From positions 1,798,001 to 1,862,000 of the forward strand of contig NZ_CP031148.1 in the NCBI RefSeq assembly GCF_003342675.1: 64,000 nt of DNA. Reading direction: 5' to 3'. Made by a program: the position numbers and the translations under genes. This DNA is from Haloplanus rubicundus (lineage in GTDB: Archaea; Halobacteriota; Halobacteria; Halobacteriales; Haloferacaceae). Shown here in pieces: positions 897 to 36,503 of the stretch. How positions within the stretch are numbered: position 1 is the stretch's first letter; each line of letters opens with the position of its first letter. Under the pieces are notes generated by a model. The model ran no database searches. It saw only the letters and a program-made list of their open reading frames with translations, and was not told where the DNA came from.

Positions 897-1976
897 ATGG
901 ACGTCTCGGCGTGGGAACGGCGACTCGTCGGTCGTGCTCCCACGCTGCTCGCTATCCTCGGTGTCGCCGCCGCCGCCGTTTCGCTCGCCCACTTCCTCTA
1001 CGACATCGAGACGCTCGGACTGGGTCCCTTGCCCGTCCTCTCGCTCGGCCTCTGTCTCTCGCTGTCGGTCGGCCTCTTCGCGCTGAGCCGCTGGCTCGCG
1101 GTCAGCGACCTCTCGGTCGCCGGAACGTGGACCGTCGTCAGGTGGTCGCTCGGCGGGATGGTCGGATTCGGTGCCCTGACGGCCCTGACGATCGGCATCC
1201 GTCTCGCCGAGGGACGAACCGTCGGCGGGGCGTCGCTCGGTCTCCTCGTGATGGCGACGGGCGGTGGGATCGGCGGCGGCGTCGCCGGCGTCTACTACGC
1301 CCGGGCGAACCACGCGGCCCGCGAGGCCGACCGCCGCCGCGACGCCCTCGTCTTTCTGAACAGCCACCTCCGGCACAACGTCCTGAACGCGGCGCAGGTC
1401 ATCCAGGGGTACACGACGCTGCTCGGCGAACGCGACGACGAACCGGACGAGTATCTCGAACCAATCGAACGCCGCAGCGACACCATCGCGTCGCTCATCG
1501 AGGACATGAGGGAACTCGCCGACCTCTTCTCCGGCGAGCGCACCCCGGTGCCGACGGACATCTCGACGCTGCTCCTTCGCGAAGTCGAGACCGCGCGCGC
1601 GAACCACGAGGCGGCGACGTTCGAGGTGGACGTCCCCCCCGAACTGTACGTGATGGCGACCGGTGCCGTCTCGGCCGTCTTCGCCAACCTCCTGCAGAAC
1701 GCCGTCGAACACCACGACGGGACGGCGCCGACCGTCACCGTCTCGGCCGAGCGAACCCCACGGACGGTGTTGGTTCACGTCGCCGACGACGGTCCCGGGA
1801 TTCGGGACGACGTGAAAGAAAACCTCTTCGACTCGGCCATCGAGTCCGGTGAGGGCCGGGGTATCGCCCTCGTGAAGACGCTGATGAACCACTACGGCGG
1901 GAACGTGTCCGTCTCCGACAACGACCCCCGCGGGACGGAAGTCGTCGTCGAGTTCCGGCGGCCGCCGCCCCAGTGA
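897..1976 (+). CDS. Membrane-bound sensor histidine kinase
   Basis: 359 residues. The first 140 residues hold about four hydrophobic segments (membrane sensor), followed by a short charged stretch. The phospho-acceptor region reads S-H-L-R-H-N-V-L-N near residues 155-163, the haloarchaeal H-box variant. A C-terminal HATPase_c domain shows N-L-L-Q-N-A-V-E-H (N box), D-D-G-P-G-I (G1) and a degraded G2 region (G-R-G-I-A-L-V-K). No PAS or receiver domain is present. A TATA-like tttatata sits at 870-877, about 25 nt before the ATG at 897, so the transcript is probably leaderless. No cognate response regulator lies beside it, so it is an orphan kinase of unknown stimulus. Its 3-prime end lies in a 37-bp tandem duplication. 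Confidence 0.85.
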   Translation: MDVSAWERRLVGRAPTLLAILGVAAAAVSLAHFLYDIETLGLGPLPVLSLGLCLSLSVGLFALSRWLAVSDLSVAGTWTVVRWSLGGMVGFGALTALTIGIRLAEGRTVGGASLGLLVMATGGGIGGGVAGVYYARANHAAREADRRRDALVFLNSHLRHNVLNAAQVIQGYTTLLGERDDEPDEYLEPIERRSDTIASLIEDMRELADLFSGERTPVPTDISTLLLREVETARANHEAATFEVDVPPELYVMATGAVSAVFANLLQNAVEHHDGTAPTVTVSAERTPRTVLVHVADDGPGIRDDVKENLFDSAIESGEGRGIALVKTLMNHYGGNVSVSDNDPRGTEVVVEFRRPPPQ

Positions 1977-2020
1977 CGCGGCGGTCGAGTTCCGGCGGCC
2001 GCCGCCCCAGTGACGCGGCG
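1947..2020. repeat. Perfect 37-bp tandem duplication across a stop codon
   Basis: Positions 1947-1983 and 1984-2020 are identical, head to tail. The first copy contains the last codons and the TGA (1974-1976) of the kinase gene. The second copy is non-coding and ends directly at the TATA-like gatataa (2021-2027) of the aldo/keto reductase promoter. The GC-rich unit contains an internal palindrome (ggcggccgcc), which could favour replication slippage. Confidence 0.95.
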
Positions 2021-2051
2021 GATATAACCCCGCGGCCGATCAACGTCGCCC

Positions 2052-2894
2052 ATGCGCTCCCTCGACGACATCGGCGATACGTTCGACATCGGCGGCGACC
2101 TGACCGTCAACCGCCTCGGCTTCGGTGCCATGCGAATCACCGGCCCGAACATCCTCGGCGACCCCGACGATCCGGCCGAGGCGAACCGCGTCCTCGCCCG
2201 CGCCCTCGAACTCGGCGTCGACTTCGTCGATACCGCCGACGCCTACGGGCCCGGCACCAGCGAACGCCTCCTCGCCGAGGCGGGCGTCCCCGACGACGCC
2301 GTCGTCGCCACGAAGGGCGGCCTCCTGCGCGCGCCGAACGGCGACTGGCTCCGCCACGGCGACCCCGACTACCTCCGGAACGCCGCGCTCTGTAGCCTCG
2401 ACCGACTCGGCGTCGACGCCATCGACCTGTATCAGTATCACGCCCCCGACCCCGACGTGCCCATCGAGGAGTCCATGCGGGTGCTCGCCGATCTGCAGGA
2501 CCGCGGCCTCGTCCGCCACGTCGGCGTCAGCAACGTCTCCGTCGAGCAACTCGAACGCGCCCGCGACGTGGTGTCCGTCGCGACGGTCCAAAACGAGTAC
2601 AACGTCGCCGACCGCACCCACGACGACGTCCTCGACGTCTGCGAGGACGAGGGCATCGGTTTCGTTCCGTACTTCCCGCTCGGCGGCGGTGACCTCGGCG
2701 GGAAGGCGGCGGTCCTCGACGACGTGGCGGTAGCCCACGACGCCACGCGCCGGCAAGTGGCGCTCGCGTGGCTCCTCGAACGGTCGCCGGTCGTCCTCCC
2801 CATCCCCGGCACGTCGACTGTCGACCACCTCGAAGCCAACGTCGCCGCCGCCGACATCGACCTCACCGACGACGAGATGGCGCGGCTCTCGTAG
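2052..2894 (+). CDS. Aldo/keto reductase
   Basis: 280 residues, a complete single-domain TIM-barrel oxidoreductase using NAD(P)H to reduce carbonyls. The catalytic tetrad of the family is visible: D60 and Y65 in D-T-A-D-A-Y-G, K88 in A-T-K-G-G and H130 in Y-Q-Y-H. The C-terminal cofactor segment V-L-P-I-P-G-T-S matches the phosphate-binding loop of AKRs. The ATG at 2052 lies about 27 nt after the TATA-like gatataa at 2021, so a leaderless message is likely. Substrate cannot be told from sequence. The promoter directly abuts the duplicated 37-bp unit upstream. Confidence 0.92.
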   Translation: MRSLDDIGDTFDIGGDLTVNRLGFGAMRITGPNILGDPDDPAEANRVLARALELGVDFVDTADAYGPGTSERLLAEAGVPDDAVVATKGGLLRAPNGDWLRHGDPDYLRNAALCSLDRLGVDAIDLYQYHAPDPDVPIEESMRVLADLQDRGLVRHVGVSNVSVEQLERARDVVSVATVQNEYNVADRTHDDVLDVCEDEGIGFVPYFPLGGGDLGGKAAVLDDVAVAHDATRRQVALAWLLERSPVVLPIPGTSTVDHLEANVAAADIDLTDDEMARLS

Positions 2895-2899
2895 GCGTC

Positions 2900-3103
2900 T
2901 CAGCGCAGCCGGAACGTGTGCTCGCGGCTCGCGCCACAGGACGGGCAGACGTGCCGGTAGACGACCCGCCGGCCGTCGGTTCGGCTCGTCCAGTTGGCGT
3001 CGTGGTCGACGTAGCCACACGCCGGGCACTTCTTCTCGGTCGTCTCGTACCGCCGTCGGAGACGGTCGAGCGCCGTGCTCCCTCCCATGCTATTCGTTGC
3101 CAT
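2900..3103 (-). CDS. Small zinc-ribbon protein (HVO_0649-type)
   Basis: 67 residues. Two CPxCG knuckles, C-P-A-C-G near residue 26 and C-P-S-C-G near residue 53, would bind one zinc. The rest is short and basic (R-L-R-R-R-Y near residue 15), suggesting nucleic-acid or protein contact. It resembles the haloarchaeal family of very small zinc-finger proteins, several of which affect motility and biofilm in Haloferax; the specific role here is unknown. The TATA-like sequence on the minus strand (complement of 3127-3136) lies about 27 nt before the ATG at 3103, which supports that start. Convergent with the reductase gene, only 5 nt apart. Confidence 0.75.
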   Translation of the reverse strand: MATNSMGGSTALDRLRRRYETTEKKCPACGYVDHDANWTSRTDGRRVVYRHVCPSCGASREHTFRLR

Positions 3104-23004: not shown

Positions 23005-24057
23005 CTACCGTGACAGGCGAACGTCGAGACAGACGTTCAGTTCGTGGGGGGCGTACGACCGGACGACGTGCCGGGTCAGCACGTCCACGTCGTAGCCGGC
23101 CGGCGCCGCCGCCTCGCGGATGGCCCGCTCGCCCGGCCCGAACGGGTCGTCCTCGTGTTGGATATCGTAGTAGTGAATGACGCAGTCGTCGTCGGCCTTC
23201 GGCCGACTGCCCGAGGGACGGCGTCCCTCGCTGTCGGCGGCGAGAGTGACGGCGGCGTCGAGGAACTCGTCGGCGCTGTGGGGGAGGTTCATCACGATGC
23301 GGTCGGCCCAGTCGGCGTAGTCGGCGGCCACGTCGCGCACGTCGCCTTCGATGGCGGTCACGCGGTCGGCGACGCCGTTGCGGCGGGCGTTCTCCCGGAG
23401 GTACTCGACGGCCACGGGGTTGAGGTCGACGCCGACGACGGTCGCCCCGCGGGCGGCCATCGGCACGGCGAAGGGACCGACGCCGGCGAACATGTCGACC
23501 GCCCGCTCGCCCGCCGCCACCTGCTCCGTGACGCGGTGGCGCTCGGTCGCGAGGCGGGGTGAGAAGTAGACCTGCGAGAGGTCGAGCAGGTACTCGAAGC
23601 CGTACTCGCGGTGGAGGGTTTCGGTGACGGGGCGGTCGTTCTCGCCGTCGTCGGCTCGCGCGACGACCGACCAGTCGCGCACGCGGAGGTCGCCTTTCAC
23701 CTTCGAGGCGCGGTCGATCACGGCACGGACGGGCAGGTCCGAGTCGAGGATCGCGTCGCCGATTTCGCGCGCCCGCTCGGGGTCGTCCTCGTCGACGATG
23801 GCCACGTCGCCGAGACGTTCGTACGAGGGGTCGAAGCCGAGGCGGTCGGCCGGCGTCTGCTGGGTGTCGTGGACCGGTACGTCGCGGGTGACGACTTCGT
23901 ACCCCTCGCTCGCCGCCTCGCGGTCGGTCACGGGGAGATAGAGGGCTCCGTCCTCGACGACGATTTCGTACTCGTCGTCGAGGAGCCCCGCTTCGGCGAG
24001 GGCCTGTCGCGTCTCCTCACCCGCCTCGCGGGGCACGCGCACGCAGGGCCGTTCCAT
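23005..24057 (-). CDS. trm5: tRNA (guanine37-N1)-methyltransferase Trm5
   Basis: 350 residues. It has the archaeal Trm5 layout: an N-terminal tRNA-binding region (about 1-110), a central domain with V-Y-F-S-P-R-L-A-T-E-R-H-R-V near residue 168, then the SAM domain with V-D-M-F-A-G-V-G-P-F-A-V-P-M-A (about 190-205), V-D-L-N-P-V-A and the catalytic-loop motif N-L-P-H-S-A-D-E-F (about 258). It methylates N1 of G37 in tRNA, preventing frameshifts, and in archaea is the first step of wyosine synthesis. An insertion near residues 275-290, encoded by two hairpins (23191-23230), interrupts an otherwise standard C-terminus. It lies beside a tRNA gene. Confidence 0.93.
   Translation of the reverse strand: MERPCVRVPREAGEETRQALAEAGLLDDEYEIVVEDGALYLPVTDREAASEGYEVVTRDVPVHDTQQTPADRLGFDPSYERLGDVAIVDEDDPERAREIGDAILDSDLPVRAVIDRASKVKGDLRVRDWSVVARADDGENDRPVTETLHREYGFEYLLDLSQVYFSPRLATERHRVTEQVAAGERAVDMFAGVGPFAVPMAARGATVVGVDLNPVAVEYLRENARRNGVADRVTAIEGDVRDVAADYADWADRIVMNLPHSADEFLDAAVTLAADSEGRRPSGSRPKADDDCVIHYYDIQHEDDPFGPGERAIREAAAPAGYDVDVLTRHVVRSYAPHELNVCLDVRLSR
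23191..23230. repeat. Two adjacent hairpins inserted in frame in trm5
   Basis: gtcggcc-ttc-ggccgac (23191-23207) and cgagggac-ggc-gtccctcg (23212-23230) are perfect stems of 7 and 8 bp, each with a 3-nt loop. On the coding strand they encode a basic loop (E-G-R-R-P-S-G-S-R-P-K-A-D-D-D). Geometry and length match the insertions in the ATP-grasp and kinase genes. Confidence 0.75.
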
Positions 24058-24095: not shown

Positions 24096-25394
24096 CTACG
24101 GTCGGGGGTCGGTCTCGGCGGTTCGGGAGTCCGGATCGGTGTCGGTCGTCCCCCTTCCGACGACGCGGCGCACCGCCGCGACGACGGCCGCCGGGTCGTC
24201 GTCGACGACGCGCCCCCGCGTCCGGAGTCGGGCGTCGAGTCGCCGTCCCGCGGCGCCCGCGAAGTTCCGTTCGTCGATGGGACGGCCGTCGACGACGACG
24301 ACCGGCGCGTCGGCCCCGCGGACGGCGTCGAGGACGGGTCGGTTCCCCGGCGCTACGGTCACGTCGGCGACGACGACGGCGTCCGCCCGGCGGAGTCGGT
24401 CGACGACGCCCCCCCGCGCCTCGTCGTCGACGGGCGCGTACGGCGGGACAGTCACGAGGTCCGCATCTATCGCCCGCGCCGTCTCGGCGTCGGGGTCGTC
24501 CGCACTCACGGCGCCGACGGAGCACTCGAACCCGGCGGCGTCGAGGCGGTGAAGCAGCGGCGTCGCGGCCCCGCCGCCGCCCACGACGTGGACGCGCCCG
24601 TCCGCGGCATCGGGGTCGTCCACGAACGCCGTCACCGATACCGATCCGGTCACCGGGTGGTCGGTGACCGTCGCCCGCGCGCCGAACGCTGCCTCGACGG
24701 TCGCGCCGGTGAGCACCGACGCCGGCGGTCCGGCCGCCTGCACCCGCCCGTCGTAGAGGAGGCGGAGTTCGTCGCAGTACCGCGCCGCGAGGTCGAGGTC
24801 GTGGATGGCCGCGACGACGGTTCGGCCCTCAGCGACGAGTTCGGACACGATGTCGAGCGTCCGGACCTGATGGTTCACGTCGAGGTCGGAGGTGGGTTCG
24901 TCGAGCAGGAGGACGGGCGTGTCCTGTGCGAGCGCCCGCGCGAGGAAGACCCGCTGTCGTTCGCCGCCGCTCACCTCCGTCACGGGGCGGTCCGCGAGGT
25001 TCGCGATGGCCGCGCGCTCCATCGCCGCGTCGACGGCCTCCCGGTCCGCCGTCGTCCGGGTGCCGAACCGGCCGATGTGGGGCGTTCGCCCCATCGCGAC
25101 GACGTGGCGAACGGGGAACTCGAAGGCGATTGCGGTCGACTGCGGGACGGTCGCGACGAGCTGGCTCGTCGCCCGCGAGCCGAGGGCCGCCACGTCCTCG
25201 CCCGCGACGTGGACCGCCCCCCGATCCGGGGCGAGCGCGCCGTTGATCGTCCGAAGCAGCGTCGTCTTGCCGGTGCCGTTCGGACCGACGAGGCCGACGA
25301 ACTGCCCCTCGTCGACGCTCGTCGACACCGCATCGAGGACGGTCACGCCGCCGAGGGAGACGGAGACGCCGTCGACGTCGATGGCGGGCGTCAC
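24096..25394 (-). CDS. btuD: Cobalamin/haem-type ABC transporter ATPase with extra C-terminal domain
   Basis: 432 residues. The ATPase (1-250) has Walker [11 protein letters not shown], the signature [10 protein letters not shown], Walker B V-L-L-L-D-E-P and the switch histidine in A-I-H-D-L. It belongs to the FecE/BtuD/HmuV group that powers import of cobalamin, haem or siderophores. About 180 further residues (from about 255) form a separate alpha/beta domain ([14 protein letters not shown], then [13 protein letters not shown]) absent from bacterial BtuD. ATGA overlap with the permease gene upstream. No substrate-binding protein gene lies in the window. Confidence 0.88.
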
Positions 25395-28834: not shown

Positions 28835-31123
28835 ATGGCGCTACAGTGGACCCCGTACACGCTCGTCCTGTTGCTCGTTGGCGGCCTCCTGACGGCCTTC
28901 GCCGTATCCCTCCGGTATCTCGGTCGCGAGGACGGGATGCCGGGGGCGAAACTGGGTGGCTCCCTGATGCTCGCCGGCGGCGCGTGGGTGTTCTGTTTCG
29001 TCGCGCAGCTGTCGAGCACGACGCTCGCGGCGAAGCTACTCTGGCGCGTCCTCACGACCGCCGCCATCCTGTCGCTGGTGCTCGTCTGGCTGGCGTACGT
29101 CTGCTGGTACACCGCTCGGTCGGAGTGGCTCTCTCGGCGAGCGTTCGGACTCTGCTCGCTCGTCCCCGCGAGCCTGCTGGCCGTCGCGGCGGTCCCCGCT
29201 GCGCGACGCTCCCTGTTCGCCGACGCCGAGTTACTCCGGGTCGGTTCGTTCGTGGTCCTCGACGCCGCGTACGCCCCGCTCTTTTTCGGCTACGTCGTCG
29301 TCGGCTACGCGCTGTTCGCCGCGTCGCTCCTGTTGCTCGTGGCCGCGGCCATCGGATCGCGTGGCATCCTCCGCTGGCAGCTCGCCGTCCTGCTGTCGTT
29401 CGCGATGCTCCCCGGGAGCGCCGTCGTCCTCGACCTGCTCGGCTACGCCCCGACGCCGGGGCTCGACTTCGGGCCGCTGTCCGTCGCGGTGACCGCCGTC
29501 GCTGGCGCGTTCAGCGTCACCCGGTTCGGGTGGCTGGACCTGACCCCCATCGCCAGGGATCAGGTGTTTCGCGCCATCGTCGACGCCGTCGTCGTCGTCG
29601 ACGCGGACGGACGGGTCGTCGACCTCAACCGACAGGCCGAACGGATCGCCGGCACCTCGGCGGCGGCGGCGGTCGGTCGGCGACTCCCCGATCTGATCCC
29701 CGAACTCGCGTCGCCGCTCGACGCCCGCGACGCGACCGACGAGCCGGCGCGCTCGGAGGTGTCGATAGCGACGCCGGACGGCCGGCGGGTGTTCGACCTG
29801 CAGCTCTCGTCGGTCGGAGACGCCGTCGACGACCGGGACGGCTACGCGTTGATCCTCCACGACATCACGACCCGAAAGGCGGCCGAGGAGCGCGTGGAGC
29901 GACGGAACCGGACGGTCGAACGGATGCTGCGGGTCGTCAACGACCTCACTGCGGCCCACACGGTCGAGGCGGTGTTCCAGCGGGCCGTCGAGGGCGGTCA
30001 CGAGATGTTCGGTCCCGACGCCTGTCGGATCGCCGTCGTCGAGGGCGACCGGTTCGTGCCCGTGGCGAGCGCCGGCGACGATCACGACGATCCGTCGCCA
30101 CAGCGGATCGGGTCGGGGTTCGCGGGCACGACGTACCGTTCCGGTGACCCCGTCGTGGTCGACGATCTGACCGACGTGCGCGGCGCCTCCGCCCTCGATA
30201 CGGGATCGTCGCGACCCTACCGGTCGCTGTTGAGCGCCCCCATCGGGGACCACGGCGTCGTACAACTGCTGTCGACCGACTCCGGGGCGTTCGACGAGGA
30301 CGACCGCGAGATGATCGCCCTCTTCACGTCACACGTCGAGACGGCCGTCGACCGCGCCGAGACGGAGGCGGAGCTTCGAGACGAGCGTGACCGACTCGAG
30401 GAGTTCGCGAGCGTCGTCGCCCACGATCTGCGAAATCCACTGACCATCGCCAGCGGACGGCTCGAACTCCTCGCGGACGCCGAGGACGCGCCGAGCGAAC
30501 ACGTCGAGCCCCTCCGGACGGCGCTCGACCGCATGGAGTCGATCATCACCGACATCCTCAGGCTCGCTCGGCAGGGCGACGCCATCGGGGAGGTGGAGAC
30601 GGTCGACCTGTCGGCCTGCGTCGACGACGCGTGGCGGAGCGTGGACACCGACGCGGCCCGCCTGCGACGCGCCGACGACCTCGGCACCGTTCGGGCGGAT
30701 CGCGGCCGACTCCAGCAACTGTTCGAGAATCTGTTTCGGAATTGCGTGGAACATGGTTCCACGAACAACCGGCGCGAAAGCGCCGGTGATACTGTGGAGC
30801 ACGGCTCCACTGAAAGCCGGCCGAAGTCCGGCGATAGCGTCGACCACGGCTCGACCGCGTCCCACTCGGACGACGCCGCCCCCTCGGTCACCGTTCGGGT
30901 CGGCCCCCTCGACCGGGCGACGGGGTTCTACGTCGCCGACGACGGCCCCGGGATCCCGCCCGACCGACGCGACCACGTCTTCGAGTACGGACACTCCTCG
31001 ACCGCCGACGGCACCGGCATCGGATTGGCCGTCGTCGAACGGATCGTACGCGCCCACGGCTGGGAGATCACGGTCGGGGAGTCCGCCGACGGCGGCGCGC
31101 GCTTCGACGTGGTCGTCGAGTGA
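28835..31123 (+). CDS. Hybrid-input sensor kinase: 7TM-PAS-GAF-HisKA-HATPase
   Basis: 762 residues from the ATG at 28835 (M-A-L-Q-W-T-P-Y), just before the first helix. Domain order: seven membrane helices of the HisKA_7TM type (1-220), a PAS domain (about 240-350, V-F-R-A-I-V-D-A-V-V-V-V-D-A-D-G), a GAF domain (about 365-505), HisKA with V-V-A-H-D-L-R-N-P-L (H near 529) and HATPase_c with an N box followed by D-D-G-P-G-I. Between the N box and G1 lies an expansion of about 40 residues containing V-E-H-G-S-T twice and V-D-H-G-S-T once, encoded by hairpins. No cognate regulator adjoins; the stimulus is unknown. Confidence 0.9.
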   Translation: MALQWTPYTLVLLLVGGLLTAFAVSLRYLGREDGMPGAKLGGSLMLAGGAWVFCFVAQLSSTTLAAKLLWRVLTTAAILSLVLVWLAYVCWYTARSEWLSRRAFGLCSLVPASLLAVAAVPAARRSLFADAELLRVGSFVVLDAAYAPLFFGYVVVGYALFAASLLLLVAAAIGSRGILRWQLAVLLSFAMLPGSAVVLDLLGYAPTPGLDFGPLSVAVTAVAGAFSVTRFGWLDLTPIARDQVFRAIVDAVVVVDADGRVVDLNRQAERIAGTSAAAAVGRRLPDLIPELASPLDARDATDEPARSEVSIATPDGRRVFDLQLSSVGDAVDDRDGYALILHDITTRKAAEERVERRNRTVERMLRVVNDLTAAHTVEAVFQRAVEGGHEMFGPDACRIAVVEGDRFVPVASAGDDHDDPSPQRIGSGFAGTTYRSGDPVVVDDLTDVRGASALDTGSSRPYRSLLSAPIGDHGVVQLLSTDSGAFDEDDREMIALFTSHVETAVDRAETEAELRDERDRLEEFASVVAHDLRNPLTIASGRLELLADAEDAPSEHVEPLRTALDRMESIITDILRLARQGDAIGEVETVDLSACVDDAWRSVDTDAARLRRADDLGTVRADRGRLQQLFENLFRNCVEHGSTNNRRESAGDTVEHGSTESRPKSGDSVDHGSTASHSDDAAPSVTVRVGPLDRATGFYVADDGPGIPPDRRDHVFEYGHSSTADGTGIGLAVVERIVRAHGWEITVGESADGGARFDVVVE
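30746..30855. repeat. Array of alternating hairpins inside a histidine kinase gene
   Basis: Five hairpins alternate in two types. Type 1: gtggaac-atg-gttccac (30746-30762), gtggagc-acg-gctccac (30794-30810) and the weaker gtcga...tcgac (30839-30855). Type 2: ccggcgc-gaaa-gcgccgg (30769-30786) and gccgg...ccggc (30816-30832). Base pairs change in a compensated way between the type 1 copies while the encoded V-E/D-H-G-S-T is retained. Confidence 0.8.
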
Positions 31124-32018: not shown

Positions 32019-33269
32019 TCAGCGATCGGTGACTGTCGGTTCGTCTCGGTCGTTGGCCGTGGACGGAGCGACGTCCGAAACCGCATCGTGTCTCGACTCG
32101 TCGTGTAGCCGATCCGTGGCGCTCGCCGTCGTTGACGGCAGGTGGACTTCGACGACGCTTCCCCGGGGGCTGTTCTGATCGAACGTGAGACGGCCGTTCG
32201 AGGCGTCGACAGTCCAGTGAACGAACCAGAGACCGAGGCCGCTCGAGTGCCGAAGCTCCGTCTCGTGGCCGCGTTCGAGCACGTCCAGTTCGTGTTCGGG
32301 GATTCCCGGACCGTTGTCACGAACTTCGATCGTCACGGCGTCGCGCTCTCCGCCGTCACACTCCGGCGATCGGACGGTGATGGCGAGATGAGGCCTCGGC
32401 GCGTCGTTGTGTTCGACGGCGTTGGTCAGAAGTTCGTCGATCGCTTCCTCGATCAGCGGGGTGCTGCGAACTTCGACCGACTCGGGAATCGTCGTCTCGA
32501 CGGTGACGCCCTCGCCGGCGAGTGTCGACGCCTTCGTCCGGAGCGGCGGACCGATATCGATCGGTCTCGTGGTGGCCGCCTCTTCGTCCAGTAACCACTC
32601 GAATCGACGGGCACAGTCGCTCATCTCCTGTAGCTCACGTGCCTTCTCGTCGATCCGCGCCATCGCCTGCCTGCGGTCGATTCGCCCCCCCTTGATGTGG
32701 CTCGCGTATCCGAGGATCACGTTGACGGCGTTGCGAATGTCGTGGCGGAAGACGCGATTGAGGATCGTAAGCCGGCTGCTCAACTGCCGAGTTCGTTCGT
32801 GCTCCGCGTGCAGGTCACGCTCCCTTCGGCGTCGTTCTCCGTCGTACGACCCGATGAGCGCGCCCAAAAGGGCGCCGACCGTCGCGTGGCTGGTCAGAAC
32901 GAAGGGAACGTCCGTCATCACGACGCCGTTGACCCGCTGATAGGTGATCGAGACGACGCCCACCGCGACGATGACGACGGCGCCGATGACACACCAGATT
33001 CCGATGCGAGCGGCGATGTCCGCTTCCTTGCGCCGGTGGATTCTGACCATCGTCATCAACAGCATCATCGAGAGGCCCATCGGAATGAGGGTTCCGAGTA
33101 GCCGCGTGTAGAGCCCTTCCGACTGCATCAACAGATGCAGGGTATGGAGGCCGAGCGAGGTAGCGCCGATCCCACCGACGACACCGAGTGACGCAACGTA
33201 GCTGCACGAGGGCAGATCGACTTCCTGCAGGGTATCGAACCACTCCACGAACGTCCGGCTCTCGATCAT
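32019..33269 (-). CDS. Membrane histidine kinase, third gene of a two-component operon
   Basis: 416 residues. Its ATG (33269) overlaps the stop of the PAS kinase as ATGA, so the two are translated together. About four hydrophobic helices occupy residues 20-145, then a coiled segment, an H-box F-R-H-D-I-R-N-A-V-N-V-I-L-G-Y (H near residue 175) and HATPase_c with L-L-T-N-A-V-E-H-N (N box), D-N-G-P-G-I (G1) and G-L-G-L-W-F-V (G2). The C-terminal 40 residues are polar and disordered. The sensor domain has no recognised family. The operon also holds a HalX regulator and the PAS kinase, so this may be a second input to the same regulator. Confidence 0.88.
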   Translation of the reverse strand: MIESRTFVEWFDTLQEVDLPSCSYVASLGVVGGIGATSLGLHTLHLLMQSEGLYTRLLGTLIPMGLSMMLLMTMVRIHRRKEADIAARIGIWCVIGAVVIVAVGVVSITYQRVNGVVMTDVPFVLTSHATVGALLGALIGSYDGERRRRERDLHAEHERTRQLSSRLTILNRVFRHDIRNAVNVILGYASHIKGGRIDRRQAMARIDEKARELQEMSDCARRFEWLLDEEAATTRPIDIGPPLRTKASTLAGEGVTVETTIPESVEVRSTPLIEEAIDELLTNAVEHNDAPRPHLAITVRSPECDGGERDAVTIEVRDNGPGIPEHELDVLERGHETELRHSSGLGLWFVHWTVDASNGRLTFDQNSPRGSVVEVHLPSTTASATDRLHDESRHDAVSDVAPSTANDRDEPTVTDR

Positions 33270-35821
33270 CGCCACTCCTTGTCGACCGCGTGTTCGTGGT
33301 ACGTCGTCGTGATTTCGAACCGTCCCCCGCCGGTGTTGTCCTCGGCGTCCGTGACGTCTATCGACCAGCCGTGGGCATCGACGATCTGCTTGGCGATTGC
33401 CAGCCCGAAGCCAGTGCCGTCGGCGGCGGACGTGAACCCGCTCTCGAAGATTCGGTTGCGCGCGCTCGGCTCGATGCCCGGACCGTCGTCTTCGATGAAA
33501 AATCCCTCTCGCCCCGACAGGCGGCCAAGTCGGATCGTCACGCCCGGCCCGGCGTGTTTCACCGCGTTCCCGAGGAGGTTCTCCAGCAACTGCCTGAGCC
33601 GTGATTCGTCGGCCGGCAGCGTCCAGCCGTGGAGGTCATCGGCTATCCGTCTGGTGGCCGTGTCCGTGTCGACGTGCTCCCACGCCAGGTCGACGATACG
33701 CTCGAAGGAAACCGGGTCGGTTTCGTGGACGATTTCCCCCTGTTTCGAGAGTTCGAGTACCTCCTCGATCATGGCTTCCATCCGCTCGAGTGCTGACAGC
33801 GCCCGATCGAGGCTGGCGTCGACGGACTCGTCGCCCTGCCGAGCCATGTCGACGTGGCCGAGCGCGATAGACAGCGGGTTCCGCAGGTCGTGGGCGACCG
33901 TTCGGGCGAACTCCTCGAGCCGATCCCGTTCGCGCTCGAGCTGGTACTCGTACTGTTTGCGTTCGGTGATGTCGGTGTTGATGGCGACGAACCGCTCGAT
34001 ATCCCCTGTCTCGTCGGTGATCGGCGCAATCGTCTGCTCGACGTGGTAGCGTTCGCCCTCCTTGCGCTGGTTGACCAGTTCTCCCTCCCAGATCTCGCCG
34101 CCGAGGATCGTCTCCCAGAGATCTTGGTAATACCTCTCGTCGTGTTCGCCGGAGTTGAGGATCGCCGGCGTCTCGCCGGTCACCTCGGCCTTCGTGTAGC
34201 CGGTCACGCTCTCGAATTCGGGATTGACGTATTCGATCGACCCGTCCGTGTCCGTGATCATGATGGCGTGTCCAGCCTGTTCGACGGCCTGTCTGAAGCT
34301 CCGGAGATCCTGCTCGCGTCGTTTGCGTGCCGTGATGTCCCGCGCGAGGCACAACACGCGCTCGGACTCGGATCCCTCGGTTCGGAGGGGGGAGATCCGC
34401 GCCGAGAAGTGGTGCGTGTCGCCGTCGAGCGGCAGCCGGTATTCGAGGTTCTGGGTCTCGCCCGCCTCGATCGTCTCCCGGATCGCCTCACAGATCTGGT
34501 TGGCCGGCTCCGGAGGCAACACGTCGTGGACGGCCAACCCTTCGAGTGCGTCCGGCGAGTCGACGAGCAGATCCTCGGCGCCCGACAACACGTCCTCGTA
34601 CGTCCCGGATTCGTCGTACACGATCGCGACATCCGGAACGGCGTCGAGGATCGTCCGGAGTTTGCGCTCGCGGTCGCGATGCTCCGAGATGTCCCTGAAG
34701 TGCCCTTGGAGGAAGGTCTGTCCGTCCAGTTCGACCACCCTGGCGTTGATCTCGACCGGGATGCGGTCGCCGCCGGCCGTCTCGACGTGGATCGGATCGT
34801 CGTCGAAGCGGCGTCGTACCGATTCGTCGTGGCGCTGGTGGCGGTCGAAGAGATGCCGGTAGCGTTCCCGGTCGCCGTCGGGATGGAGTGCCGACTGGTG
34901 CATTCCGATGATCTCTCCCCGCGGCCGGCCGATCAACGAGGTGGCGGCTTCGTTCGCCTCGACGATAATCCCGGTGTCCGTGTCGGCGACGATGATCGCG
35001 TCCGGTGCCGCGTCGATCAGCTCCCGGTACTTTCGTCGCCTTCCGTCGCACTTCCGGTCCTCGGCGCCGGGTGCCGACCGCTCGGTTCCCGTGGCGACGA
35101 TCCGTTCGGTCCGTCCGTCGTCGTCACGGACCGATCGCACCCGCAGATCGATCCGTCGCGTCTCGCCGGCGCCGTCGACGACGAGTTCACCCTCCCACGG
35201 GTCGCCGTCGGTGATCGACCCCCAGTCGTCATCGATCGCGGTGCCGAGGGCGGAGACCGGTCGTCCGACGAGAGCGCGCCGATCCTCGCCGAGGATCGTC
35301 TCGAACGCCCGATTCACGTGTTCGATCCGGCCGTTGGGGTCGGCGATAAGGAACGGGAGTCCCATTCCGTCGACCGCCGTTCGGAACCGGCGGCAGTCCG
35401 TCCGTATTCGCCGAGACGCCACGCACCGTTCGATGCGACGCGCGAGGAGCGTCCGGCGCTCGGTGTCGGTGCGTCCGGAGAGGTAGTCGTCGGCGCCCGC
35501 TCGGAACCAGCGTCGCGGATCGCCGTCGGACTGATCGTACGCGAGGACTGGGGGGGTGGATCGCCGCTCATCGAGCGCCGCTAGTAGGCCGTCCGCGTCC
35601 TCCGGACACGTTCCCTCGACGATGACGCAGTCGATCGACTGCTCGTCCAGCGTGGCCGTCACGGCGGCTCGCTCCGAGACGGCGTGTACCTCCATCCCGT
35701 GTTCTGCGTCGAGCATCGGCGGCACGTCCGACGACGCTCGGCACAGGTAGAGGACGGTCGGCGGCGACTGGAGCGGCGCCCCAGATCGACGGTCCCGACG
35801 GTTCGAGGAGAGGTTATCCAT
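33266..35821 (-). CDS. Soluble multi-PAS histidine kinase
   Basis: 851 residues from the ATG at 35821, which overlaps the end of the regulator gene by 8 bp. A receiver-like N-terminal region (about 15-130: V-L-Y-L-C-R-A-S, D-C-V-I-V-E-G) seems degenerate because the phospho-Asp is replaced. Four PAS domains follow (about 150-265, 278-400, 400-525, 525-635), then HisKA with V-A-H-D-L-R-N-P-L-S (H near 652) and HATPase_c with N-L-L-G-N-A-V-K-H, D-D-G-P-G-I and G-T-G-F-G-L-A-I. No membrane helix, so it senses a cytoplasmic signal, perhaps redox or a small ligand. Probably phosphorylates the HalX regulator encoded just upstream. Confidence 0.9.
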   Translation of the reverse strand: MDNLSSNRRDRRSGAPLQSPPTVLYLCRASSDVPPMLDAEHGMEVHAVSERAAVTATLDEQSIDCVIVEGTCPEDADGLLAALDERRSTPPVLAYDQSDGDPRRWFRAGADDYLSGRTDTERRTLLARRIERCVASRRIRTDCRRFRTAVDGMGLPFLIADPNGRIEHVNRAFETILGEDRRALVGRPVSALGTAIDDDWGSITDGDPWEGELVVDGAGETRRIDLRVRSVRDDDGRTERIVATGTERSAPGAEDRKCDGRRRKYRELIDAAPDAIIVADTDTGIIVEANEAATSLIGRPRGEIIGMHQSALHPDGDRERYRHLFDRHQRHDESVRRRFDDDPIHVETAGGDRIPVEINARVVELDGQTFLQGHFRDISEHRDRERKLRTILDAVPDVAIVYDESGTYEDVLSGAEDLLVDSPDALEGLAVHDVLPPEPANQICEAIRETIEAGETQNLEYRLPLDGDTHHFSARISPLRTEGSESERVLCLARDITARKRREQDLRSFRQAVEQAGHAIMITDTDGSIEYVNPEFESVTGYTKAEVTGETPAILNSGEHDERYYQDLWETILGGEIWEGELVNQRKEGERYHVEQTIAPITDETGDIERFVAINTDITERKQYEYQLERERDRLEEFARTVAHDLRNPLSIALGHVDMARQGDESVDASLDRALSALERMEAMIEEVLELSKQGEIVHETDPVSFERIVDLAWEHVDTDTATRRIADDLHGWTLPADESRLRQLLENLLGNAVKHAGPGVTIRLGRLSGREGFFIEDDGPGIEPSARNRIFESGFTSAADGTGFGLAIAKQIVDAHGWSIDVTDAEDNTGGGRFEITTTYHEHAVDKEWR

Positions 35822-36503
35822 CGTGTCCGCCCTCCGCATCGGCGGTCCGTTCGATCGGTTCGGATGCGCCCGCGCCCACGACCGATTGGGACTCGATGAT
35901 CTTCTGCAGGACGTCCCGGAACACGAGCCGCGATTCGTCACGGTCGATTAGCTCCGCGATCCGCTCGCGGTTCTTGGCTTCGAGGCGTTCCCGTCGCTCG
36001 CGGAGTCGTCGGTACTCCTCGTTGTCGTCGAGGCTGTCCTCGTCGAACCGTGACTCCAGCGCGACGATCTTCGACGTGACCGACAGCAGTTCCCGGGTAT
36101 CGCGGCCACACCGGGCCCGAAGGAGCAGGCTCTCGACGAACTCCCGGAGGTCCTGTCGGCGGACGGGTTTGACGACGTACGCGTCGAACTCCATCTCGAC
36201 GATGTCCGTGTCGGGATCGACCGACGTGATCATCGCGACGCGGCAATCGTACCCCTCCTCCCGGACGGTTTCGAGCACCTCGTCGCCCGACAGCCCCGGC
36301 ATCCGTCGGTCGAGCAGGAGCACGTCAACCTCGTTGGAGAGGCGGACGAGCGCTTCCTCCCCGCTGGTCGCCGTCAGGACGGTGTGGGTATCTTCGAGCA
36401 TCGCCGCGTACATTCCGACCAGATGCGGGTCGTCGTCGACGACGAGCACCGTTCCCTGTTCGGACACTACGTCGGATTCGGACCGACGCTCATCGAGCGA
36501 CAT
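35814..36503 (-). CDS. Response regulator with HalX domain
   Basis: 229 residues from the ATG at 36503; a longer frame to 36587 is possible. The receiver domain (17-130) has the acidic pocket V-V-D-D-D-P, the phospho-acceptor D65 in L-L-L-D-R-R-M-P-G and the conserved Lys in V-V-K-P-V-R-R. The HalX domain follows (about 150-210, Y-R-R-L-R-E-R-R-E-R-L-E-A-K-N-R-E-R-I), a haloarchaea-typical output coiled region of unknown mechanism. No DNA-binding domain is seen. It probably belongs with the two kinases downstream, and perhaps with HemAT upstream, since no TATA-like box is obvious in the GC-rich spacer 36504-36644. Confidence 0.9.
   Translation of the reverse strand: MSLDERRSESDVVSEQGTVLVVDDDPHLVGMYAAMLEDTHTVLTATSGEEALVRLSNEVDVLLLDRRMPGLSGDEVLETVREEGYDCRVAMITSVDPDTDIVEMEFDAYVVKPVRRQDLREFVESLLLRARCGRDTRELLSVTSKIVALESRFDEDSLDDNEEYRRLRERRERLEAKNRERIAELIDRDESRLVFRDVLQKIIESQSVVGAGASEPIERTADAEGGHDG

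Follow-up and report, generated by a model that had tools for sequence, protein, structure and literature searches.

We have identified in haloarchaeal genomes a 45-bp double-hairpin unit that occurs in frame in many unrelated protein genes, is repeated in tandem at the N box of histidine kinases and keeps the pairing of its arms while their sequence varies. These arrays and dispersed units are very probably one short, non-autonomous mobile element. As far as the searched literature shows, its closest known kind is the Rickettsia palindromic elements, and the unit is new for Archaea. The window to which we refer is the 64,000-nucleotide stretch of the Haloplanus rubicundus genome that was analysed (contig NZ_CP031148.1, positions 1,798,001 to 1,862,000).

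Results

A tandem hairpin array at the N box of a histidine kinase

The array is hosted by a histidine kinase with the Pfam architecture HisKA_7TM, PAS, GAF, HisKA and HATPase_c (Table 1). The mechanical open reading frame begins at GTG 28556, and we consider ATG 28835 (MALQWTPY...), just 5' of the 7TM region, to be the likelier start. A preliminary description had placed the hairpins at 30746–30855, where they are indeed present, and had proposed that they expand the loop after the N box of the HATPase domain. This placement stands: the array consists of tandem copies of a double-hairpin unit of about 45 bp and starts within the N box, whose last codons supply the loop and 5' arm of the first hairpin, and it is predicted to form an excursion before the next strand. 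In an AlphaFold2 model of the catalytic region, this excursion has a pLDDT below 50 between a confident N-box helix and a confident next strand, and the array is thus predicted to be disordered there. It folds better than all of 200 dinucleotide shuffles, with z scores of −4.4 as DNA and −3.4 as RNA.

The pattern GTNGANCAYGGNTCNAC matches three times in the window (0.02 expected) and 21 times in the whole genome, against none for the reversed pattern. The distinct loci behind these 21 matches are all HATPase kinases, and their hairpins lie at the end of the N box or immediately after it. Two more HATPase_c genes adjoin the window kinase (32019–35941, minus strand), both without an array. Elsewhere in the window, a tRNA-Arg (CCG) is predicted at 24746–24842 (plus strand); at 97 nt it is longer than usual and possibly contains an intron.

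Table 1. Positions in the window of the kinase array, the trm5 copy and their host genes (HP1 and HP2, first and second hairpin of the unit).
Feature	Position	Strand	Evidence or remark
Histidine kinase, host gene of the array	28835..31123	+	Pfam matches and ORF
N box of HATPase_c (ENLFRNC-VEHG)	30725..30757	+	Sequence; conserved, 19 aligned kinases
HP1 copy 1, GTGGAAC-ATG-GTTCCAC (VEHGST)	30746..30762	+	Perfect 7 bp; 8 bp with flanking C-G
HP2 copy 1, CCGGCGC-GAAA-GCGCCGG (NRRESAG)	30769..30786	+	Perfect pairing
HP1 copy 2, GTGGAGC-ACG-GCTCCAC (VEHGST)	30794..30810	+	Perfect pairing
HP2 copy 2, GCCGGCC-GAA-GTCCGGC (SRPKSG)	30816..30832	+	6/7 pairs, one C-T mismatch
HP1 copy 3, GTCGACC-ACG-GCTCGAC (VDHGST)	30839..30855	+	6/7 pairs, one C-C mismatch
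Trm5-type tRNA (guanine-N1)-methyltransferase	23011..24051	-	Pfam TRM5-TYW2_MTfase 3.1e-44; PDB Trm5b 5yac 5.8e-56
Single dispersed unit in trm5, AGC-GAGGGACGCCGTCCCTC-GGGCA-GTCGGCCGAAGGCCGAC-GAC (SEGRRPSGSRPKADD)	23188..23232	-	Exact 45-nt in-frame insertion
HP1 of trm5 copy, GAGGGAC-GCC-GTCCCTC	23213..23229	-	
HP2 of trm5 copy, GTCGGCC-GAA-GGCCGAC	23191..23207	-	

Anatomy of the unit

Aligned units read (GAC or AAC)-AGC-HP1-GRGCA-HP2-GAC, with 45 nt from AGC to GAC, and they end in AGC...GAC without a terminal inverted repeat. HP1 and HP2 are hairpins of 17 nt each, with a 7-bp stem and a 3-nt loop. What is conserved is the linkers, a few arm positions and the pairing; the arms are otherwise variable. 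In the loci we counted 109 such double-hairpin units; a Markov control of equal size (1.9 Mb) had none. When HP2 alone was searched for and HP1 was left unconstrained, 31 of 37 sampled loci proved to have an HP1 with six or all of its seven pairs; the matches L293 and L319, like the viral matches L398–L400, have no HP1. The tandem units of kinases measure 45–48 nt, and the array peptides are rich in S, T, G, D, E, R, N and Q. Two loci, L243 and L260, hold arrays of several hairpins in another reading phase, where hairpins of odd length seem to shift the phase; L243 seemingly lies in a sensor-type protein, recognised by eye. These two loci, and the matches that have no HP1, count against the reading of all copies as one mobile element.

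Pairing is kept beyond what the peptide and codon usage would give

Pairing was assessed in 141 kinases with 304 VEHGST copies, taken from haloarchaeal contigs (the matches listed) and whole-genome loci. The third codon positions of V and S (3-15) are complementary in 264 of the 304 copies against 133 expected, and those of E and G (6-12) in 266 against 148; these counts, and those on cassettes and mismatches below, take related sequences as independent. Mis-registered pairs and neighbouring copies gave no comparable excess of complementarity among the same copies. The second hairpin type occurs in kinase arrays as cassettes of 27, 30 or 33 nt. In the 27-nt cassette, the seven position pairs that covary best coincide exactly with the nested stem pairs of a 7-3-7 hairpin, nonsynonymous ones included. 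Codons 4 and 6 have complementary first bases in 87 of 95 cassettes (34 expected), and the peptide therefore alternates between T..S, P..A and A..P; likewise, the choice of G or D at codon 7 tracks the third base of codon 2. The 30-nt cassettes (for example L061, L104 and L111; SPxSQAxxD) appear as a distinct type, with a 6-bp outer stem and a conserved 10-nt loop that has a near-invariant T/C mismatch at its base.

With synonymous codons randomised according to their usage in the arrays and the peptide held constant, perfect HP1 hairpins fell from 80% observed to 10.5% and perfect HP2 hairpins from 66% to 0.8%. The preliminary description had suggested that compensatory changes keep the pairing and had asked for this comparison with codon bias, and on both counts the data bear it out, with strong covariation at both synonymous pairs and pairing far above expectation. 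Its remark on a GNRA-like loop carries no general meaning, as most HP2 loops are 3-nt GNA. A selected RNA helix should favour G-U over A-C mismatches. Both kinds were rare among 3151 pair cells, and there was no excess of G-T (G-U in mRNA), with 35 cases against 58 of A-C; the constraint, or a mutational process that matches the arms to each other, therefore most likely acts on DNA and not on RNA.

Units in unrelated genes and across the haloarchaea

The preliminary description had pointed to similar expansions in other haloarchaeal kinases. GTNGANCAYGGNTCNAC does occur in 282 of 391 haloarchaeal genomes, and almost every locus inspected lies at a kinase N box. The HP2 form CCGGACGNAGTCCGG was searched in 12 congeneric genomes and matched 45 times, the reversed pattern once. 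Many of these lie outside kinases, each adjoining another hairpin of the same kind. The hosts in the genus include RecJ, a Rad3-type helicase, diaminopimelate decarboxylase, 3-hydroxybutyrate dehydrogenase, a DJ-1-like protein and CbiH. Elsewhere in the class, units were found in valyl-tRNA synthetase (two tandem copies; a class I synthetase match, with the valyl identity assigned by eye), a beta-CASP MBL protein, an S9 peptidase, a carboxyl transferase and a universal stress protein, and on annotated plasmids in aconitase, MerA and CobN. Most inspected copies are intragenic. The suggestion of a mobile or self-copying palindromic mini-element is thus supported; the idea that it is tolerated in one protein loop, with the array confined beside the N box, had to be dropped, since the 45-bp unit lies in many unrelated genes and in tnpB right-end hairpins. 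The kinase site is the densest home of the unit and not its sole one. Across genomes, one same-genus array (L204) encodes the same peptide as an array of Haloplanus ruber (L080).

A generic pattern, made up of HP2 and the flanks only, matched in 140 of 391 haloarchaeal genomes, with none in the control. A draw across the phylum gave 24 positive genomes, every one haloarchaeal, and no match in over 300 non-haloarchaeal genomes. The 13 plasmid matches of this pattern were likewise all haloarchaeal. A contig scan for VEHGST arrays returned only haloarchaeal contigs and no Rickettsiales among the matches listed. Viral contigs held no VEHGST tandem arrays, and the three viral matches of the generic pattern (L398–L400), being without HP1, were taken as chance.

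Filled and empty sites

The window itself holds a dispersed copy in the trm5 gene (Table 1). Among 27 genomes compared, this is the only one with the unit, and the 26 other orthologues, ranging from genus to order, are empty. Filled and empty genes differ by exactly 45 nt, between GAC and GAC, in a helix-to-strand loop that is absent from the solved Trm5b structure 5yac. In the MBL protein (beta-CASP, exonuclease), 30 sampled orthologues are empty and read like VLVDDGETRLLYTGD, and two are filled, reading VLVDD-[15 residues]-GETRLLYTGD. The two filled copies differ by paired changes in both hairpins, GAGGTAC/GTACCTC against GAGGTGC/GCACCTC in one hairpin and A-T against G-C at the base of HP2. 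A third case is a TrxR-like gene, with about 20 empty orthologues like EFEDGTVREYKGG; several orthologues from different genera are filled, with the unit after the same GAC/GAT codon. With GAC on either side and 45 nt gained net, the sites are compatible with insertion at GAC, whether or not 3 nt were duplicated in the process. In this sample of one genome per species, movement is deduced from empty sites between species.

Copies at tnpB right ends

Copies with the loop GTA are located at the 3' end of tnpB (OrfB_IS605/TNB domains), within the right-end hairpin, as in CCCCGGCGT..double hairpin..ACGCCGGGG. The double hairpin occupies this place in several different tnpB elements (L323–L334, L309 and L314), often with the GTA loop. 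Coding copies avoid this loop because it would give a TAG stop in the usual coding phase. Haloarchaeal omega-RNAs have been reported with a right-end hairpin (PMC12558985). The noncoding copies had no match in Rfam, and we dropped them as candidates for independent structured RNAs, since they are placed in tnpB right-end hairpins. Two further noncoding copies, L300 and L316, are near a tnpB end without being clearly at one. On L300, at about 1660–2910 (plus strand), a chorismate synthase gene identified by eye seems to carry another insertion (EGESRSDSEPSSGDEPRDRGDP).

Turnover of kinase arrays

The window kinase and its orthologue L201 are 82–89% identical in the flanks and 41% in the array. 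Its paralogue L004 shows the reverse, with 38–41% in the flanks (75% in 60 nt of the N box) and 79% in the array. From these comparisons we infer that arrays have been exchanged between paralogues by homologous recombination, which would leave orthologues with different arrays. Units are probably crowded in kinases because N-box repeats undergo homologous exchange. A point against unit movement there is that ordinary gene conversion, acting on N-box sequence, could be responsible for part of the spread of kinase arrays. Within kinase arrays (L001–L169), an HP1 copy and the one next to it tend to differ at both synonymous pairs at once (GA with CG, CA with GG), and second-neighbour copies are identical in 31 of 49 cases; duplication in dimers could have produced this, and so could the loss of identical neighbours.

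Discussion

The unit itself, the constraint on its pairing, its dispersal, the precise empty sites and the sharing of arrays between paralogues can all be read from the sequences. For the mobile element that we favour, tandem in kinases and dispersed elsewhere, a route may be outlined as follows. The unit would insert beside a GAC codon and, because 45 is a multiple of three, would keep the reading frame, adding 15 hydrophilic residues to a surface loop. Its arms can vary widely so long as they remain paired, and the peptide would merely be tolerated. At the kinase N box, whose codons (GTN GAR CAY GGN, VEHG) form the 5' half of HP1, the unit would multiply as direct repeats. The two hairpins, the keeping of structure over sequence and the fixed short flank suggest that the unit is copied or moved in the form of a folded single strand. 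Such a single-stranded DNA hairpin might move or be copied by HUH-type transposition or by template switching at the fork, and imperfect arms may be re-templated from each other. Fork template switching would repair arms and duplicate units; alone, it does not account for dispersal to unrelated genes.

A first alternative is a purely local origin of the kinase array. The N-box codons GTNGANCAYGG are already half of HP1, the tandem units measure 45–48 nt, and adjacent and second-neighbour copies show a slippage-like periodicity, so that a quasi-palindrome in the N box might have grown by replication slippage and intrastrand template switching with nothing mobile involved. We regard this as improbable, since units with the same linkers (AGC, GRGCA, GAC) stand alone in other genes with clean empty sites (trm5, MBL, TrxR-like) and also sit inside tnpB right-end hairpins. 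Local origin is thus contradicted for the dispersed copies, and it may still act in changes of copy number and arm repair within kinases. Selection on the protein would make VEHGST a kinase motif and the palindrome a by-product of codon bias. The motif does repeat the end of the N box and is frequent in kinases, yet this account is extremely unlikely given the codon randomisation, the complementary amino acid changes of HP2, the different peptides in other proteins, the predicted disorder of the array and the unrelated arrays of orthologues. Hairpins kept in the transcript for pausing, stability or regulation would agree with the stable RNA fold (z −3.4) and with the copies in the tnpB right-end region, where omega-RNA is expected. 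Transcript function is nevertheless very unlikely, as G-U-compatible mismatches show no excess over A-C (35 against 58), the host genes are functionally unrelated and Rfam gave no match.

Within the mobile-element reading, the unit could be a minimal IS200/IS605 derivative moved in trans as single-stranded DNA by Y1 TnpA. The two subterminal hairpins and the fixed 3-nt GAC flank at both ends presumably resemble the left-end/right-end layout of IS200/IS605. Copies also lie in IS605-type right ends, and haloarchaeal PATEs derive from IS605 elements, according to the available text of PMC3119063. We consider this derivation doubtful, because the arm sequences lack the conservation expected of a TnpA recognition site, and because the unit shows no association with Y1_Tnp counts: Y1_Tnp (PF01797) averages 2.2 per genome in element-rich and 1.9 in element-free genomes, and four element-rich genomes have none. 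These counts give no support to the Y1 transposase of IS200/IS605 as what drives the unit today; an enzyme since lost, or one not recognised, is conceivable. There is little probability that the TnpB/omega-RNA system mobilises the unit, which would then be copied from the omega-RNA-encoding right-end hairpin into GAC targets. If true, the unit would be an RNA-associated, structure-only mobile element, with heredity residing in base pairing and not in sequence.

Our search of the open literature found no description of the 45-bp unit. Rickettsia palindromic elements are about 150 bp long, and their families each have a conserved peptide (Ogata et al. 2000, 2002, summarised in PMC10969869). According to the same text, they are palindromic, selfish-looking DNA that lies in frame in unrelated protein genes and is translated. 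The unit likewise shows in-frame insertion in unrelated genes with empty orthologues; it differs in its 45 bp, its double hairpin, its variable paired arms, its occurrence in Archaea and its tandem growth in kinases. The SMR-A of Haloquadratum walsbyi, as the accessible part of PMC3119063 presents it, is about 110 bp, with prominent terminal inverted repeats and a conserved sequence. It belongs to tiny haloarchaeal repeats without a transposase that are found in near-terminal palindromes of IS605-type elements and whose mobilisation is unexplained. Loci L334, L309 and L323–L333 share this type of insertion without a transposase; the unit has 45 bp, and in-frame insertion in protein genes is not reported for SMR-A in that part of the paper. 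PATEs and IS200/IS605 elements, too, have subterminal hairpins without terminal inverted repeats in haloarchaeal genomes, but they are larger, and IS605 mobilisation is attributed to TnpA (same part of PMC3119063), whereas the unit is unassociated with Y1_Tnp.

PARCELs are tandem palindromic protein-coding repeats that have spread between genes and genomes, in the available text of PMC2996958. There they encode amphipathic domains, none is reported in archaeal genomes and a 7-3-7 double hairpin is not described; the kinase array, with its hydrophilic composition and predicted disorder, forms no amphipathic repeat domain. REP and BIME elements differ in being extragenic, in contrast to most inspected units. 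Fungal and other mitochondrial DNAs contain double-hairpin elements, which are short mobile DNA with two hairpins and variable arms. Being organellar, they are unlike the haloarchaeal unit.

Protein-coding palindromes have been described as a unique but recurrent feature of Rickettsia (title of Ogata 2002, as cited in PMC10969869). The unit adds a class-wide archaeal family with a much smaller coding palindrome, present in essential or conserved genes (trm5, valS, aconitase). Its amino acids change in complementary pairs while the DNA arms stay paired, a clear example of protein sequence being governed by DNA structure. The unit also accounts for the hypervariable loops beside the N box of haloarchaeal kinases, which will mislead alignments and annotation. 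In genetically tractable haloarchaea, the unit offers a system in which to test how tiny coding palindromes move, a long-standing question.
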